Source: a virus
DNA length: 30,387 nucleotides
Direction: 5' to 3' (one strand)
Virus record (IMG/VR): IMGVR_UViG_3300030002_000086
Location: 1 to 30,387 of that record
Part shown: in pieces, positions 191 to 23,557 of the stretch
Layout of the letters: each line of letters opens with the position of its first letter
How positions within the stretch are numbered: position 1 is the stretch's first letter
The notes under the pieces: generated by a model
Told to the model about the DNA's origin: nothing
What the model saw: only the letters and a program-made list of their open reading frames with translations
The model's database searches: none
Translations under genes and position numbers: made by a program

Positions 191-356
191 TACGAACATG
201 TTACCCGGATACCAACAGGACGAAACATTTGACGAAAATAACGACATAGACTTTGAAGCTATCCGAACACTTGTCATTATTGTTTTTACCGCTTCAGGTT
301 GCTTTATAGCAGCTCTAGGACTTGGAATTTACTACTTTATTATAAACAACTTTTAA
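183..356 (+). CDS. Small single-pass membrane protein (57 aa)
   Basis: ATG at 183-185 opens a 57-codon frame ending in TAA at 354-356. The N-terminal half is acidic (QDETFDENNDIDFE) and the C-terminal half is one hydrophobic segment at about residues 29-53, so a single membrane span with an N-terminal cytoplasmic acidic tail is expected. The start overlaps the end of the preceding frame by 8 bases, and the end is 12 bases from the DUF3164 start, which fits one early operon. No family was recognised and no function can be given. Confidence 0.6.
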   Translation: MTNTNMLPGYQQDETFDENNDIDFEAIRTLVIIVFTASGCFIAALGLGIYYFIINNF

Positions 357-368
357 ACTCATTTTAAA
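352..368 (+). promoter_or_regulatory. TTTAAA pair at 11-bp spacing before the DUF3164 gene
   Basis: TTTAAA occurs at 352-357 and again at 363-368, directly against the ATG at 369. It is the same two-box, 11-bp arrangement seen before the portal gene (23541-23557), and a member of the phage-wide motif family described in the findings. Whether it acts on DNA or as an unstructured A/T-rich ribosome-loading leader is not known. Confidence 0.45.
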
Positions 369-4249: not shown

Positions 4250-5076
4250 TATACACGCTTGTAAAGCATTATATCCGTGTACCCTGAATTATAACCCATT
4301 CGTGCGTTCATCTCCACTTTAGTAGCACCGGTAAACGGGTCATCCGCGCCCAGGTTCTTAGCCATCCACTCCGTTAACTCCAAAATACTACTCTTATTTG
4401 ACGTAAAATAGAAATAGTTAGTTCCCTGAAGCGTCTGAAGTACGTCAAGATAATTAGCTAACCGCCAGTAGTTGCTATAAGTTGTGCAGTCAGTCGATAA
4501 GTATGGAGGGTCGATAAAGAATACCACACCACTCACATGCTTCCAACGATCAAACAGTTCTCGGTAATCCATACATACAACATCCACACCCGCCAGATAG
4601 TCACCGGCCAACTCATAATCATTCTTTCGGACACAGTTGTACATGGTTTCTTTGGACAATGCTTCGTAGTTAGTGGCATAGTTCATACTAAACAGAAGGC
4701 TTGATGATATAGTAATATAATCAACATACCCGCTGCGCTTTTCTTCGTTTCTAATGGCCTTTAGGATACTTTCCTTGGCTTCTTTGCTGATTACCTTATC
4801 AGCAGGTTCATCTGCAAGAATAACGCGAAATTCGGCAAGAAGCGCATTTGTATGCTCAATGTTAGCAATACGCAGGTGATAACCATCATAGTCATTATAG
4901 ATAACCGTTGCATCCGGATACTGACTCTTTACCCAGTGGCTCAGCAAACCACTGCCACCAAACAAATCGATAAAAAGTGGTGCATCACTAAACTGCTTTA
5001 AAGCGTTTTTAAACTCCAATGCAAACCGTCGTTTTTGCCCCTGAAATGGTAGGGGACTTTGAGAAAATTGTTTCAT
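4249..5076 (-). CDS. D12-class DNA N6-adenine methyltransferase
   Basis: The 275-residue length and motif order fit the D12 (Dam-like) class: SPLPFQGQKRRF near the N-terminus (S-adenosylmethionine-binding motif X region), FIDLFGGSG at residues 35-43 (motif I), and the catalytic DPPY at 189-192. It should transfer a methyl group from S-adenosylmethionine to N6 of adenine in a short DNA site. No restriction gene is nearby, so it is a solitary phage methyltransferase that may shield phage DNA from host restriction or affect regulation; its site is unknown. It lies alone between two strong hairpins, at the far end of the late minus-strand operon. Confidence 0.88.
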   Translation of the reverse strand: MKQFSQSPLPFQGQKRRFALEFKNALKQFSDAPLFIDLFGGSGLLSHWVKSQYPDATVIYNDYDGYHLRIANIEHTNALLAEFRVILADEPADKVISKEAKESILKAIRNEEKRSGYVDYITISSSLLFSMNYATNYEALSKETMYNCVRKNDYELAGDYLAGVDVVCMDYRELFDRWKHVSGVVFFIDPPYLSTDCTTYSNYWRLANYLDVLQTLQGTNYFYFTSNKSSILELTEWMAKNLGADDPFTGATKVEMNARMGYNSGYTDIMLYKRV

Positions 5077-5637: not shown

Positions 5638-8283
5638 TTATGATTGATATTCAAATGATCCTATGTCCATAGACGTTCCCTTTGATCGGGGATTAGACTT
5701 TATATCATACACAGAACCGTAACCTGAAGCATTATTTGAATTAAGTCCCTTATCTATTAGATACGATGTATTAGTGTATGAAAGTGTACAAACAAGTGAC
5801 TCATCAACTACGCCTGCAGCTGTAGAAATAGTAGTGAAATAGGGTGAGGTTGCATCGCCTTCATTGGTTGCCGATAGTGATATATTTCCAGTTCCGACAC
5901 GAGTTTCATCTTCAAATGCACAATAGATTTCAGCGCTTGAATTTGTATTCGTAACATTTCCCTTTGTTCCTGCAATTGACTTGTTTCCCCACACTACTGT
6001 ATTTTTCATTGCACAGTTATTTGTTCCACCTCCAAGATTACGGACTACGGAGCTATTTATAAGCGTTGACAAATAAGCACCTCCTACTCCATTAGCCGCA
6101 TAGTTATTTTTCAGATTACATGATACTGCTGTAACTGTGTGCATAGCTCCTGATATTCCACTTGATGTATTATTATAAAACATACAGCAGTACGCCGTTA
6201 TACCTGAGGCTCCTGCTGTATAAGCTGTTGAACTACTCACTGAGTTATCTGAAAATGTGCAATTAGTTGCAGTACCTGAATACATAGCTCCTACTCCTTT
6301 GTCGGCCGCAGCGCTGCTAGAATTACCTTTTATATAACAATTATTTATAGTTCCTCCACATATAGCTCCTGCACTAATTGCACTAGAATTAGCATAAATG
6401 TAGCAGTTGTTTACGGTGCATCCAGTTATGTTTGAATACGTCATCGACCCTGCCCCTGTCAATACATTTGAGTTAATATTACTATTATTTACAGTACATG
6501 TTGAAATAGCCCCTACACCGTGAGTAGTTCCAGATGTTGTATTATTTTGTACTAGACAATAGTTTAGTGAGCACCCTACAGCCGCAGAAGCTAAATCAGT
6601 ATAACCATTAAAGTTAATGGTTGTAATTACGTTATTTTCTATAATGCAATTAGATACATTGATTCCTGTGCTATTTCCTCTAATCCCAGCTGATGCACCA
6701 TGTGTGTTATCTGAATTATTATACCCACCGCTAATTGTAAATCCGTTCAAAATTACATTTGAGTAATTATTAACCACTACAGTTAGAGCAGCAGATGCTT
6801 GTGTGCCTGTTAGATCGCCGCTAAGTGTAGATTTATTAACGGGAATTGATACATGTAAATCAACGTTCCCAGATGGTAACTTTAATGTTGTTACATAGTC
6901 ATTCATTGCGCGCTGGTATAATGTTGTTTCTGTTCCTGCAAAACCTCCGAATATGCCAACACCTGCTTTAGTTAGGAACGAAGCCGTTCTTGCACTTCCG
7001 GCCGTTCTAAGAGTAGTAGGTAAATATTTAATTCCAGTAGCTGAACCCTTAACAAAAACTGCATCTCCAATACTCGATGCATCAATTGCCGGTTGAACAT
7101 CCTTAAATGCAGTAGCCCATGTCAAACCATTATTTGAATTATTTCCACTAACTCCATCAACAAATCTAGTAGTAGAACCTATTATAGCATTACCATAAGA
7201 ATCAATCCCAACACTGGCCACATTTTTATAAACTACCGATAAATGCCAGGTTGCTCCACTATTTGATGAAATAGCTTCATAAACATATTCTCCAATCAAG
7301 TTAGGACTATCTAAATTGGCAAAATAAAAGTTAGACGGAAAAGTCAAAGCCACATAATCAGTCAAAACAAGTTTCAAGAAGAACCTCATAAATTTACTAG
7401 TATCAGCCTGACTTGTATTTACTGATATGGTCAAATTTGAAGCTGTAGAAAGTCCGTAAAATTGACAGTTACTAGCCAGCAAAATAGAACCGTTTGCCAC
7501 AGTTGTCATATTTGATTCAAGTCCAACGACATTGAGCGTTTTTAGCCACTGTGATTCAGTGCCGGAATAACCGTTATTGACGGCTATTTGGTAGTTATTT
7601 AGTCCATTAGACCCGGCAGCACCCGCGTTACCATCCGACCCTTGCGCTTTTACGCCTGTATCATTTGCACCAATAAACCAGTTACCATTTCCGCCAATAT
7701 GTGGAATAATACCATCAGTTCCGGCAGCACCTGCGTTACCATCCGCCCCTTGTGCTTTTACACCTGTATCTGTCGTTCCAATAAACCAGTTACCATTTCC
7801 ACCAATATGCGGAGTAATACCATCAGTTCCGGCAACACCTGCGTTACCATCTGCCCCTTGTGCTTTTACGCCTGTATCTGTCGTTCCAATAAACCAGTTA
7901 CCATTTCCACCAATATGCGGAGTAATACCATCAATTCCGGCAACACCTGCGTTACCATCCGACCCTTGCGCTTTTACACCTGTATCTGTCGTTCCAATAA
8001 ACCAGTTACCATTTTCGCCAATATGAGGAGAAATACCATCTGCTCCCGGAGTACCTATACCATTTTCCAATGCTTCAGTAAGTCCAACAACATCACTAAT
8101 CTCAATATCTACACCTTTCATGGCATACTTATCAAACTCAGATTGAATACCTTCAATTGATGTAATTGGAATCTTATCATCCTTGTGAAAAAAGGAATCT
8201 AATACATCCCAAAAATTACTTTGAGATGGTTTTAAACCAGTTTTAAAGAATTGTTTCAGTGTATTTATTGACTGTTTTGCCAT
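5638..8283 (-). CDS. Tail fibre with glycine-rich repeats and right-handed beta-helix domain (881 aa)
   Basis: Residues 1-80 form a phage-type attachment region (SNFWDVLDSFFHKDD). Residues 82-225 are four tandem 36-residue repeats beginning DGI.PHIG.NGNWFIG and ending in a Gly/Ala-rich collagen-like stretch. Next is the common fibre phrase GYSGTESQWLKTL. From about residue 370 (TRFVDGVSGNNSNNGLTWATAF) to the end is a domain usual in secreted Bacteroidota proteins: FGGFAGTET, LSGDLTGT, many Asn/Cys/Gly beta-helix rungs, and the closing DIGSFEYQS. It is probably the receptor-binding or capsule-binding fibre; a depolymerase activity is possible but no catalytic residues can be assigned. Confidence 0.8.
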   Translation of the reverse strand: MAKQSINTLKQFFKTGLKPSQSNFWDVLDSFFHKDDKIPITSIEGIQSEFDKYAMKGVDIEISDVVGLTEALENGIGTPGADGISPHIGENGNWFIGTTDTGVKAQGSDGNAGVAGIDGITPHIGGNGNWFIGTTDTGVKAQGADGNAGVAGTDGITPHIGGNGNWFIGTTDTGVKAQGADGNAGAAGTDGIIPHIGGNGNWFIGANDTGVKAQGSDGNAGAAGSNGLNNYQIAVNNGYSGTESQWLKTLNVVGLESNMTTVANGSILLASNCQFYGLSTASNLTISVNTSQADTSKFMRFFLKLVLTDYVALTFPSNFYFANLDSPNLIGEYVYEAISSNSGATWHLSVVYKNVASVGIDSYGNAIIGSTTRFVDGVSGNNSNNGLTWATAFKDVQPAIDASSIGDAVFVKGSATGIKYLPTTLRTAGSARTASFLTKAGVGIFGGFAGTETTLYQRAMNDYVTTLKLPSGNVDLHVSIPVNKSTLSGDLTGTQASAALTVVVNNYSNVILNGFTISGGYNNSDNTHGASAGIRGNSTGINVSNCIIENNVITTINFNGYTDLASAAVGCSLNYCLVQNNTTSGTTHGVGAISTCTVNNSNINSNVLTGAGSMTYSNITGCTVNNCYIYANSSAISAGAICGGTINNCYIKGNSSSAAADKGVGAMYSGTATNCTFSDNSVSSSTAYTAGASGITAYCCMFYNNTSSGISGAMHTVTAVSCNLKNNYAANGVGGAYLSTLINSSVVRNLGGGTNNCAMKNTVVWGNKSIAGTKGNVTNTNSSAEIYCAFEDETRVGTGNISLSATNEGDATSPYFTTISTAAGVVDESLVCTLSYTNTSYLIDKGLNSNNASGYGSVYDIKSNPRSKGTSMDIGSFEYQS
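7609..8040 (-). repeat. Four tandem 108-bp repeats inside the tail fibre gene
   Basis: The stretch encodes four 36-residue units (residues 82-117, 118-153, 154-189, 190-225) that differ at only a few positions, for example Ser/Thr/Ile at position 4 and Ser/Ala before DGNAG. The DNA copies are nearly identical, so the number of units could change by recombination or slippage, altering fibre length. Confidence 0.9.
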
Positions 8284-12874: not shown

Positions 12875-13191
12875 TATATTTCCACTTTTAAATCCGTAAA
12901 ACTTTTACCTACTGTCACTTTTGCTTTTATTCCATCGCTCAATAATTCAGTAGTCAGATTATTGATAAACTTTTGCCTGGATGCAGGAGTAACCGTCATT
13001 TTCAAATAACTTTCAATACCGAAACCAAGCGTAGGGTATTCTTTAAAATCTCCTTTTTGAGCTGCTATTATAAGCTTCACACGCTGATAATCTATGTTAC
13101 CTATAGTCAAACCGGACTCAATAAGTCCGGATGAATTTCGCACCACCGTAATGGCCAACTCATTATTTTCTGTCAGTAAAATTCCGTTCAT
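12874..13191 (-). CDS. GPW/gp25-like baseplate wedge protein (Mu gp46 position)
   Basis: The 105-residue protein carries the gp25 pattern KGDFKEYPTLGFGIESYL in its middle, in the place of the conserved loop of T4 gp25/P2 gpW-type wedge proteins. These form part of the baseplate that links hub and sheath. Its stop overlaps the endolysin start by one base (12874), and its start overlaps the preceding gp45-like gene by 4 bases. So the lysis genes are inserted between the gp46-like gene and the gp47-like baseplate J, an arrangement that differs from Mu. Confidence 0.75.
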   Translation of the reverse strand: MNGILLTENNELAITVVRNSSGLIESGLTIGNIDYQRVKLIIAAQKGDFKEYPTLGFGIESYLKMTVTPASRQKFINNLTTELLSDGIKAKVTVGKSFTDLKVEI

Positions 13192-13679
13192 TGTACACTC
13201 GGTGTTTGTGGTTCAAATACAATAGCAGCTACAGCACCATTACCGGCAATGGGCGAATTCTGCAGTAACCCTTTTAGCGTATTCATATCCGTATGCACTT
13301 TATTCATCCATTGTGCCAGGTTAGTTCCGTTAAGCGTTGCACCATCCTTATCAACAATAAATGTTTTACCACCTATCTTAATACGGAACGCCTGTACCTC
13401 AGAGCAACGAAGCAACACAGCTTCAGTCTTCAACCCCTCAATAATGCCTACCACCACGCTTGAATTCTCTGCAGGAACTGTTACGCAGTATGTTTGTAAG
13501 TCATCATCAATAGCACTTAATCGCACGTCATAGAGTGCAGGAGCGTTATCGCGCTCAACGTCGCAGGTTGTTTCACCCACTTTTACTACCGTGCCGGTGA
13601 TTACTTCTTTAAGCTCGAACCGGTCAATCACTGCGACTATTGCTTTTTTTATCGCTTCTTCTAATGCTTCTGCACTCAT
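13188..13679 (-). CDS. Baseplate spike/assembly protein, gpV/gp45-like (163 aa)
   Basis: An OB-type beta domain is visible from about residue 30 (GTVVKVGETTCDVERD... YDVRLSAI, then VPAENSSVVVGIIEG) as in gpV/gp45 spike proteins. A C-terminal part has a beta segment (FRIKIGGKTFIVDKDGATLNGTN), the usual linker into the spike tip. I prefer the ATG at 13679 (MSAEALEEAIK) because a TTTAAA pair lies 8 bases upstream; the longer frame from 13730 would translate through it. The spike is the tip of the contractile tail. The gp25-like gene follows with a 4-base overlap. Confidence 0.7.
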   Translation of the reverse strand: MSAEALEEAIKKAIVAVIDRFELKEVITGTVVKVGETTCDVERDNAPALYDVRLSAIDDDLQTYCVTVPAENSSVVVGIIEGLKTEAVLLRCSEVQAFRIKIGGKTFIVDKDGATLNGTNLAQWMNKVHTDMNTLKGLLQNSPIAGNGAVAAIVFEPQTPSVQ

Positions 13680-13686
13680 AACGTAC

Positions 13687-13703
13687 TTTAAAAACGCTTT
13701 AAA
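13687..13703 (-). promoter_or_regulatory. TTTAAA pair at 11-bp spacing before the spike gene
   Basis: TTTAAA lies at 13687-13692 and 13698-13703, 8 bases in front of the preferred start at 13679. It belongs to the same family as the sites at 15925 and 18107. No TAnnTTTG element was seen beside it. Confidence 0.45.
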
Positions 13704-15924: not shown

Positions 15925-15952
15925 TTTAAATTGTATTTAAAATCTGTTTAAA
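15925..15952 (-). promoter_or_regulatory. Triple TTTAAA array at 11-bp spacing before the chaperone gene
   Basis: TTTAAA starts at 15925, 15936 and 15947, two exact 11-bp steps. It stands 13 bases before the ATG at 15912 and directly behind (15 bases) the hairpin that follows the tail tube gene. The distance to the start codon equals that of the array at 18107-18134. Confidence 0.6.
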
Positions 15953-15966
15953 AAATTATCAAATAA

Positions 15967-15995
15967 CTTTCCCAAAGTTCCAGACTTTGGGAAAG
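15967..15995 (-). terminator. Hairpin after the tail tube gene
   Basis: CTTTCCCAAAGT at 15967-15978 pairs perfectly with ACTTTGGGAAAG at 15984-15995 around a 5-base loop. On the minus strand it is followed by a T/A-rich stretch. It probably reduces read-through after the highly needed tube and sheath genes (partial terminator) or protects the mRNA end. Confidence 0.7.
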
Positions 15996-18106: not shown

Positions 18107-18134
18107 TTTAAATTGACTTTAAATTTTATTTAAA
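18107..18134 (-). promoter_or_regulatory. Triple TTTAAA array at 11-bp spacing
   Basis: TTTAAA starts at 18107, 18118 and 18129. It lies 13 bases before the ATG at 18094 and 11 bases behind the GGGGG/CCCCC hairpin that follows the capsid gene. The order hairpin, triple TTTAAA, gene is the same as at 15925-15995. Confidence 0.6.
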
Positions 18135-18144
18135 CCATACTAAG

Positions 18145-18160
18145 TCCCCCTTTCGGGGGA
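18145..18160 (-). terminator. GC hairpin after the major capsid gene
   Basis: TCCCCC at 18145-18150 pairs with GGGGGA at 18155-18160 around TTTC, with an additional GGGGG at 18165-18169. On the minus strand it follows the capsid stop by 11 bases. Such C-run/G-run repeats are also common as dispersed elements in Bacteroidota, so it may be a repeat used as a terminator. Confidence 0.55.
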
Positions 18161-18171
18161 TTTAGGGGGCT

Positions 18172-19230: not shown

Positions 19231-19276
19231 TCTCTTTTTTTAATTAACTATTAAACAACACAATAATTTTTAGTAC

Positions 19277-19296
19277 AGACGCACGGCCGTGCGTCT
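19277..19296. repeat. Palindromic repeat, copy 3, between protease and capsid genes
   Basis: It is the same perfect 20-bp palindrome as at 10930-10949, with the same flanking bases. It is intergenic, 20 bases after the protease stop and about 47 bases before the capsid start, and could form a hairpin in the transcript that reads through. Confidence 0.9.
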
Positions 19297-19315
19297 CTAT
19301 AATTTACACGGGTTT

Positions 19316-20504: not shown

Positions 20505-20534
20505 CAAACATACACAATCAAATATTACCGTCAA
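20505..20534 (-). promoter_or_regulatory. Bacteroidota-type promoter for the minus-strand late operon
   Basis: On the minus strand TTGA at 20534-20531 and TATGTTTG at 20512-20505 are separated by 19 bases, as in the -33 and -7 elements (TTG, 19-21 bases, TAnnTTTG) of Bacteroidota sigma factors. Transcription would begin near 20499, about 17 bases before the protease ATG. Confidence 0.7.
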
Positions 20535-20540
20535 TACCTG

Positions 20541-20600
20541 ATTTAAAGCGGCTTTATCAAACTTTAAAGCCGCTTTAAATTTTATTAAAATGGCTTTAAA
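20541..20600. promoter_or_regulatory. Operator-like TTTAAA array between the two late promoters
   Basis: A perfect 16-bp inverted repeat (20541-20556 and 20565-20580, 8-base loop) has TTTAAAGCGGC / GCCGCTTTAAA ends; a further GGCTTTAAA half-site is at 20592-20600. TTTAAA or close variants start at 20542, 20553 (TTTATC), 20563, 20574, 20584 (ATTAAA) and 20595, steps of 10-11 bp. The array's midpoint (20571) is the midpoint between the -33 elements of the two divergent promoters. It suits a dimeric late regulator bound on one face of the helix. Confidence 0.65.
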
Positions 20601-20607
20601 CAACCCC

Positions 20608-20637
20608 CTGACACTTCATTCACGAAGTGTATTTTTG
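20608..20637 (+). promoter_or_regulatory. Bacteroidota-type promoter for the plus-strand packaging operon
   Basis: TATTTTTG at 20630-20637 matches the -7 consensus TAnnTTTG, and CTG at 20608-20610 stands 19 bases upstream in the place of TTG. Transcription would begin about 14 bases before the small terminase ATG at 20657. A 7-bp hairpin (ACACTTC 20611-20617 / GAAGTGT 20624-20630) lies within the promoter and may be a binding site. Confidence 0.55.
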
Positions 20638-23540: not shown

Positions 23541-23557
23541 TTTAAAGCACTTTTAAA
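23541..23557 (+). promoter_or_regulatory. TTTAAA pair at 11-bp spacing before the portal gene
   Basis: TTTAAA lies at 23541-23546 and 23552-23557, one base before the ATG at 23559. The organisation is nearly identical to that before the DUF3164 gene (352-368), with a GC-containing 5-base spacer. Confidence 0.5.

Follow-up and report, generated by a model that had tools for sequence, protein, structure and literature searches.

What binds the TTTAAA boxes that recur about one helical turn apart along the genome of a Mu-like phage, and what do they do there? The window analyzed here is the whole of IMG/VR virus record IMGVR_UViG_3300030002_000086 (30,387 bases). Its gene set is that of a Mu-type contractile-tailed phage (Mu portal, Mu F, gp36, gpG, DUF2586 sheath, ClpP-like protease, DUF3164, and D12 methyltransferase), its closest cultured kin are Winoviridae (Flavobacterium phage fF4 and Winogradskyella phage Peternella), and it seems to lack the left end, where transposase and repressor would lie. 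We found that the box arrays, here called ladders, are selected DNA elements: palindromic TTTAAA words about one turn apart (11, sometimes 10 bp) with G+C-enriched spacers, of which about 4 to 12 per 30- to 40-kb genome are typical of transposable (Mu-like) phages. Our search of the open-licence literature found no prior description of such an element in transposable phages of Bacteroidota and Gammaproteobacteria.

Phased TTTAAA boxes in the window

TTTAAA-N5-TTTAAA occurs 10 times in the window, versus a mean of 0.04 in dinucleotide shuffles, while lone TTTAAA is hardly enriched (47 versus 36). Among TTTAAA pairs ≤60 bp apart, the distance 11 occurs ten times and the others fall only at 20 to 22, 31 to 32, 49, and 53; 11 is the sole over-used spacing. 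Two three-box ladders lie within these 30 kb, and just six were found in 118 Bacteroidota genomes (several hundred Mb), which rules out a host-wide feature. A sequence-only reading of the window had reported turn-spaced arrays that AT content does not explain and had named counts in shuffled and host sequence as the test; both counts bear it out, as does the absence of the reversed control, AAATTT-N5-AAATTT, from all ten related records.

Every coordinate given in that reading is right, with four corrections (Table 1). Its fullest array, at 20541 to 20600, does have six positions, but two of the boxes are degenerate (TTTATC and ATTAAA, leaving four exact boxes) and the steps are 11, 10, 11, 10, and 11 rather than 11 throughout; the relative G005 has the same layout. 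The DUF3164 ladder contains the two boxes reported but begins one degenerate box earlier, and the pair ahead of the capsid gene was correctly called degenerate. Most arrays stand before genes, as proposed, and the majority of window pairs are intergenic, but two exact pairs that the reading had not listed lie inside the D12 methyltransferase and tail-fibre genes; the latter may be a coding coincidence. The tail-fibre gene also contains a 54-bp coding repeat in eight copies (GTTACCAT every 54 bp; window 7627 to 8060).

Table 1. Ladders and associated elements of the window
Feature	Coordinates	Strand	Context	Conservation or basis
Six-box ladder, three 17-bp dyads every 21 bp; boxes 20542, 20553 (degenerate), 20563, 20574, 20584 (degenerate), 20595	20542..20600	.	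Between divergent ClpP-like protease and small-terminase genes	Sequence; conserved in five phages
Putative Bacteroidota −7 promoter element TATTTTTG (TAnnTTTG)	20628..20635	+	Small-terminase operon; predicted transcription start	Conserved, five aligned phages
Putative −7 element TATGTTTG	20505..20512	-	Protease operon; predicted transcription start	Conserved, five aligned phages
Ladder TATAAA 341 (degenerate), TTTAAA 352 and 363	341..368	.	Ends at ATG of DUF3164 gene	Same place in G002, G003
Pair	13687..13703	.	7 bp before start of spike-like gene (13188-13679, -)	Orthologous ladder in G005, G007
Three-box ladder	15925..15952	.	12 bp ahead of start of 113-aa gene (-)	
Three-box ladder	18107..18134	.	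12 bp ahead of start of 117-aa gene (-)	Orthologous in G007
Degenerate pair TTTAAT/ATTAAA (19239, 19250)	19239..19255	.	Before capsid gene	Weak taken alone
Pair	23541..23557	.	1 bp before portal ATG	Just upstream of portal gene in all portal relatives found
Pair	4997..5013	.	Inside D12 methyltransferase gene	Same place in G003, G004, G005, G006, fF4; spacers differ
Pair	8231..8247	.	Inside tail-fibre gene; codes FKTGLK on - strand	Coding

Conservation in close relatives

The spacing is conserved in related phages, as the sequence-only reading had expected: each of the ten related records holds 2 to 9 pairs, with 8 to 9 in each of the larger relatives G003, G004, and G005. All portal relatives (55 to 100% identity), as well as an F. 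davisii prophage (37%), carry a pair just upstream of the portal gene, and among the portal relatives the boxes are kept while the spacers have changed. Likewise, the pair within the D12 methyltransferase gene is kept at one place in six phages despite different spacers.

The relatives' ladders lie mostly at gene starts, of early (transposase, MuB, DUF3164) and late (portal, terminase, spike) genes alike, with few in coding sequence. Ladders ahead of early genes refute a late-gene-only role, and the proposal of a late control system of this phage group is not supported, given also the ladders in genes and in Mu-like phages of other phyla. Late promoter control of the Mor/C type, with sites only at middle or late promoters, does not fit either, since ladders also precede the transposase, MuB, and DUF3164 genes and occur within genes. 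The distance from the end of the last box to the ATG is −1 to 13 bp in 29 start-adjacent ladders, even where the intergenic gap is 60 to 280 bp. Many start-adjacent ladders occupy an operon-internal gap, and none of 35 had a Bacteroidota TAnnTTTG promoter in the 110 bp that precede the start. Strong hairpins (−15 to −16 kcal/mol) were observed at window 15953-15995, 18135-18171, and 19255-19300 (- strand), each between a gene's stop and the next gene's ladder; the order stop-hairpin-ladder-ATG recurs in relatives, so these hairpins may be terminators or processing sites. Directly before the transposase gene's ladder in L026 (2770-2800) lies a tRNA T-arm-like sequence (ggggttcgattccccgcc), where ARAGORN detected no tRNA.

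In an alignment of five phages, a conserved TAnnTTTG element stands on either side of the six-box ladder, one per strand and some 30 bp from its edge. Because the ladder lies upstream of both predicted divergent promoters, it would be in neither transcript, which favors action at the DNA level.

Ladders across viral contigs

We scanned IMG/VR for three-box ladders and obtained at least 120 matches at spacing 11, at least 120 for a spacing-12 control, and 102 for an AAATTT control. Raw counts thus fail as a discriminator in viral contigs, and only context separates the sets. Among the matches listed, 38% of spacing-11 ladders abutted an ORF start (≥60 codons), compared with 5% and 11% in the controls, and the spacing-11 loci held 73 further same-spacing pairs versus 5.8 expected, compared with 13 versus 8.5 and 11 versus 4.2 in the two control sets. 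From the matches listed we took 28 ladder contigs, each ≥28 kb, picked by ladder strength rather than gene content; they are a non-random sample, and some are related to one another. All 28 encode a Mu portal, as opposed to 2 of 21 spacing-12 controls among the matches listed, and one of those two portal-bearing controls (G167) itself holds six pairs at 10 or 11 bp. An AAA_22 (MuB-like AAA+ ATPase) protein, mostly of about 300 residues, is present in 27 of the 28. On the evidence of terminase matches to Pasteurella phages, many of these contigs belong to Mu-like phages of Pasteurellaceae. A megablast search with two ladder contigs against phages returned no matches.

Box distances over the ladder contigs peak at 10 to 12, 20 to 22, and 33. 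Part of this is built in, since every contig was selected by a three-box ladder, which supplies two 11s and one 22; beyond these, pairs at 11 still number well above 100, and the corresponding AAATTT profile is flat. The peak at 11 persists for pairs lying >60 bp inside genes, and spacings 12 and 13 in coding DNA are not similarly enriched. Together with the conservation described above, the distance peaks support the idea, raised by the sequence-only reading, of a multimeric, turn-phased DNA site. Spacer G+C is 54%, against about 40% for the genomes, and the spacers are T-poor on the sense strand (A 0.33, T 0.14); C exceeds G in the spacers 55:18 in the window's clade, with P = 0.06 in the larger set, and the boxes themselves are symmetric. 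Most ladders consist of two or three boxes.

Ladders are mostly intergenic (123 of 196; 63%) in genomes that are about 5% intergenic. With gene starts taken from a simple ORF caller, 25 of 58 ladders in tandem gaps of ≥60 bp lay within 15 bp of a start, versus 11.8 expected; this preference is weaker in the larger contig set than in the window's clade. Ladders are also spaced along the genomes more evenly than random: in 27 contigs sharing <5% of 16-mers, the coefficient of variation was 0.62 to 0.64 versus 0.80 to 0.84 for random points (P between about 1e-5 and 3e-4 across four merging distances). Single TTTAAA boxes show no such evenness, and gene order may account for part of it.

Isolate phages with and without transposition genes

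Transposing phages isolated from four Gammaproteobacteria and three Flavobacteriia, not selected for ladders, also carry them. Pairs at 10 or 11 bp number 12 in Pasteurella phage AFS-2018a, 11 in Flavobacterium phage fF4, five each in Peternella, Pseudoalteromonas phage HS6, and Shewanella phage MuM16-2, three in Vibrio phage 1.028, and two in Elizabethkingia phage TCUEAP3, which has three more at 22. Flavobacterium phages FPSV-S1 and lotta8-1, which have a Mu portal, Mu-type virions, and helicase replication and lack MuA and MuB, have zero ladders, although their TTTAAA content equals or exceeds that of several ladder phages. Presence in transposing isolates and absence from non-transposing relatives imply that the trait follows transposition. 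Mu and phiRTG5, both with MuA/MuB, are exceptions in having no ladder, and G+C-rich Mu-like phages have neither TTTAAA ladders, save one 10-bp pair in Klebsiella phage Kp4866-3, nor, as far as we found, ladders of other hexamers. The trait thus tracks transposition, rather than host, G+C content, or virion, and some transposing phages are without it.

Candidate binding proteins

Several candidate binders were tested and do not fit. DUF3164 fails on both sides: phiRTG5 has DUF3164 and lacks the ladder, and AFS-2018a has ladders and its candidate ORF is not DUF3164. The CI/S24 repressor is rejected because the intergenic region at its gene has no ladder pair; none lies between repressor and early genes in G003, G005, AFS-2018a, Vibrio phage 1.028, MuM16-2, or HS6. 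The repressor-early intergenic regions of L026 (870-1004) and L031 (G005 31900-32040) share a different palindrome, GCCGTTGTGA..TCACAACGGC, with AAATCA..TGATTT in addition in G005; these are probably CI-type repressor operators. An 11-bp repeat of the Mu operator is no model, since that region of Mu carries CTTTT repeats, which are spaced differently. MuA end sites are excluded because the ladder is not common to both phage ends: in AFS-2018a, fF4, Peternella, TCUEAP3, and Vibrio phage 1.028 the ends carry other repeats, and in some of these five a ladder lies within 300 bp of one end only. The AFS-2018a ends (L161) carry AAATGGGAAA repeats, unlike ladders; these are probably transposase sites.

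Possible functions of the ladders

From the phasing we infer that each ladder may be a co-operative landing site for an oligomeric protein that binds double-stranded DNA with one contact per turn. The binder could tentatively be sought in the transposition machinery, most plausibly a MuB-type AAA+ target-control ATPase that would protect the phage from self-insertion. We favor this reading, though at less than even odds, with a regulator or roadblock nearly as likely because of start adjacency and the divergent promoters.

Such a regulator would bind co-operatively at promoters and where genes begin. In the divergent region it would activate from about −42 upstream, and elsewhere it would serve as a stoperator-like roadblock that could, for example, silence host-gene read-through into a prophage inserted at random. 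We regard it as a serious possibility, though short of an even chance. It would account for the intergenic bias (63% of ladders in genomes about 5% intergenic), the start adjacency (38% versus 5 to 11% in controls among the matches listed, and 25 versus 11.8 expected in long gaps), the position of both conserved TAnnTTTG elements about 30 bp from a ladder edge, the AFS-2018a ladders before amidase and protease genes, and spacers that may be oriented with the gene. It accounts poorly for a repressor/early region free of ladders, for ladders deep inside genes and at early and late genes alike, and for 35 start-adjacent ladders with no promoter near; moreover, comparison of AFS-2018a with the Bacteroidota set revealed no regulator family common to ladder phages. 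Start adjacency also bears on an RNA-level element, in which UUUAAA repeats in the ribosome-binding region would control initiation. The last box does end −1 to 13 nt from the ATG, and in Pasteurellaceae phages a Shine-Dalgarno sequence lies within the spacer, but palindromic boxes at DNA-turn spacings (including 10, 20 to 22, and 33), ladders deep in genes, and a ladder upstream of both predicted divergent promoters make this quite improbable. The translation role entertained by the sequence-only reading is accordingly weakened in its pure form, while the start-codon preference behind it is real.

Phased TpA-centered boxes with G+C-rich spacers might instead favor wrapping or bending for the transposition complex, host nucleoid proteins, or gyrase. 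The spacer composition (54% G+C in genomes of about 40%) and the requirement of Mu domain formation for host nucleoid proteins (PMC7350765) fit, but AAATTT or mixed A/T words would phase equally well and yet the word is strictly TTTAAA (the AAATTT profile is flat), and most ladders have just two or three boxes; we consider this reading unlikely. Least probable is a chance or coding artifact, in which 11-bp pairs would arise from A+T-rich DNA and from F-K-x-x-L-K, a helix motif (TTT AAA NNN NNT TTA AAA). Pair 8231 codes FKTGLK and many fF4 pairs are in coding sequence, so that single pairs such as 8231 may still fit; the motif accounts for single pairs at most. As a general account it is refuted by the distance peaks over the ladder contigs, by coding spacings 12 and 13 that are not similarly enriched, and by non-transposing relatives that have as many or more TTTAAA words and no ladder; the mostly intergenic window pairs also speak against it.

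The favored MuB-type reading draws on the portal (28 of 28) and AAA_22 (27 of 28) genes of the ladder contigs, the ladders in unselected transposing isolates, their even spacing, the box-distance peaks at 10 to 12, 20 to 22, and 33, and the peak at 11 deep in genes. Families common to AFS-2018a and the Bacteroidota phages are MuB, virion families, and a few weak matches. MuB is described as forming filaments in an ATP-dependent manner, with a preference for A+T-rich DNA and strong binding inside the Mu genome, and the DNA it covers is refractory to insertion (PMC2837660). These properties make a putative nucleation role for the ladders attractive. Against it, Mu and phiRTG5 have MuA/MuB and no ladder, and the start-codon preference, the T-poor sense-strand spacers, and the place between divergent promoters point to gene expression. 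MuB is also known to open promoter and translation-start targets; it has been called non-specific, and Mu genome immunity is incompletely understood and, in Mu, largely MuB independent (PMC7350765).

Under the MuB-type reading, the ATPase, which forms helical filaments in Mu with an A+T-rich preference, would be nucleated on the phage's own DNA by ladders that recur at intervals of a few kilobases, largely in stretches of low coding constraint and frequently next to start codons. Replicating copies would thereby be kept from self-integration ("Mu genome immunity") or stay together as one domain. The fuller version, in which ladders form a dispersed cis-acting mark that puts a phage's own DNA off-limits to its own transposition in several phyla, as putative MuB-type filament nucleation sites every few kilobases, is more speculative and, on present sequence comparisons, somewhat unlikely. 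A tie to MuB would open a way to study how Mu-like phages escape self-insertion during replication, in phages where the marks are visible and removable; if a regulator's site, they would belong to a genome-wide control system common to phages of several phyla. Either way, they are a possible sequence marker for transposable phages in metagenomes.

Comparison with known systems

Phased UP elements and class II activator sites are turn-phased A+T boxes from about −42 upwards. The window's divergent region has A+T box phasing of this kind, whereas most start-adjacent ladders are without a nearby promoter and many ladders are inside genes. The Mu operator/enhancer consists of tandem A+T-rich repeats bound by repressor and transposase (the MuA enhancer domain); its CTTTT repeats are about 15 to 16 bp apart and include no TTTAAA pair, and the ladders, unlike it, are genome-wide. 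The stoperators of cluster A mycobacteriophages (L5 type) are many dispersed sites that occupy promoters and the short gaps between genes and whose orientation follows transcription (PMC9283540), and ladders are likewise many and dispersed in one phage genome. Stoperators, however, are asymmetric 13-mers recognized by an immunity repressor that acts as a monomer and binds its own early promoter as well, whereas here palindromic boxes form phased ladders, none in the repressor region and many inside genes. MuB and Mu genome immunity differ in that MuB has no described defined sequence sites and Mu itself has no ladder; they are alike in that the ladders are A+T-rich and genome-wide and, in this sample, occur solely in phages that have transposition genes.
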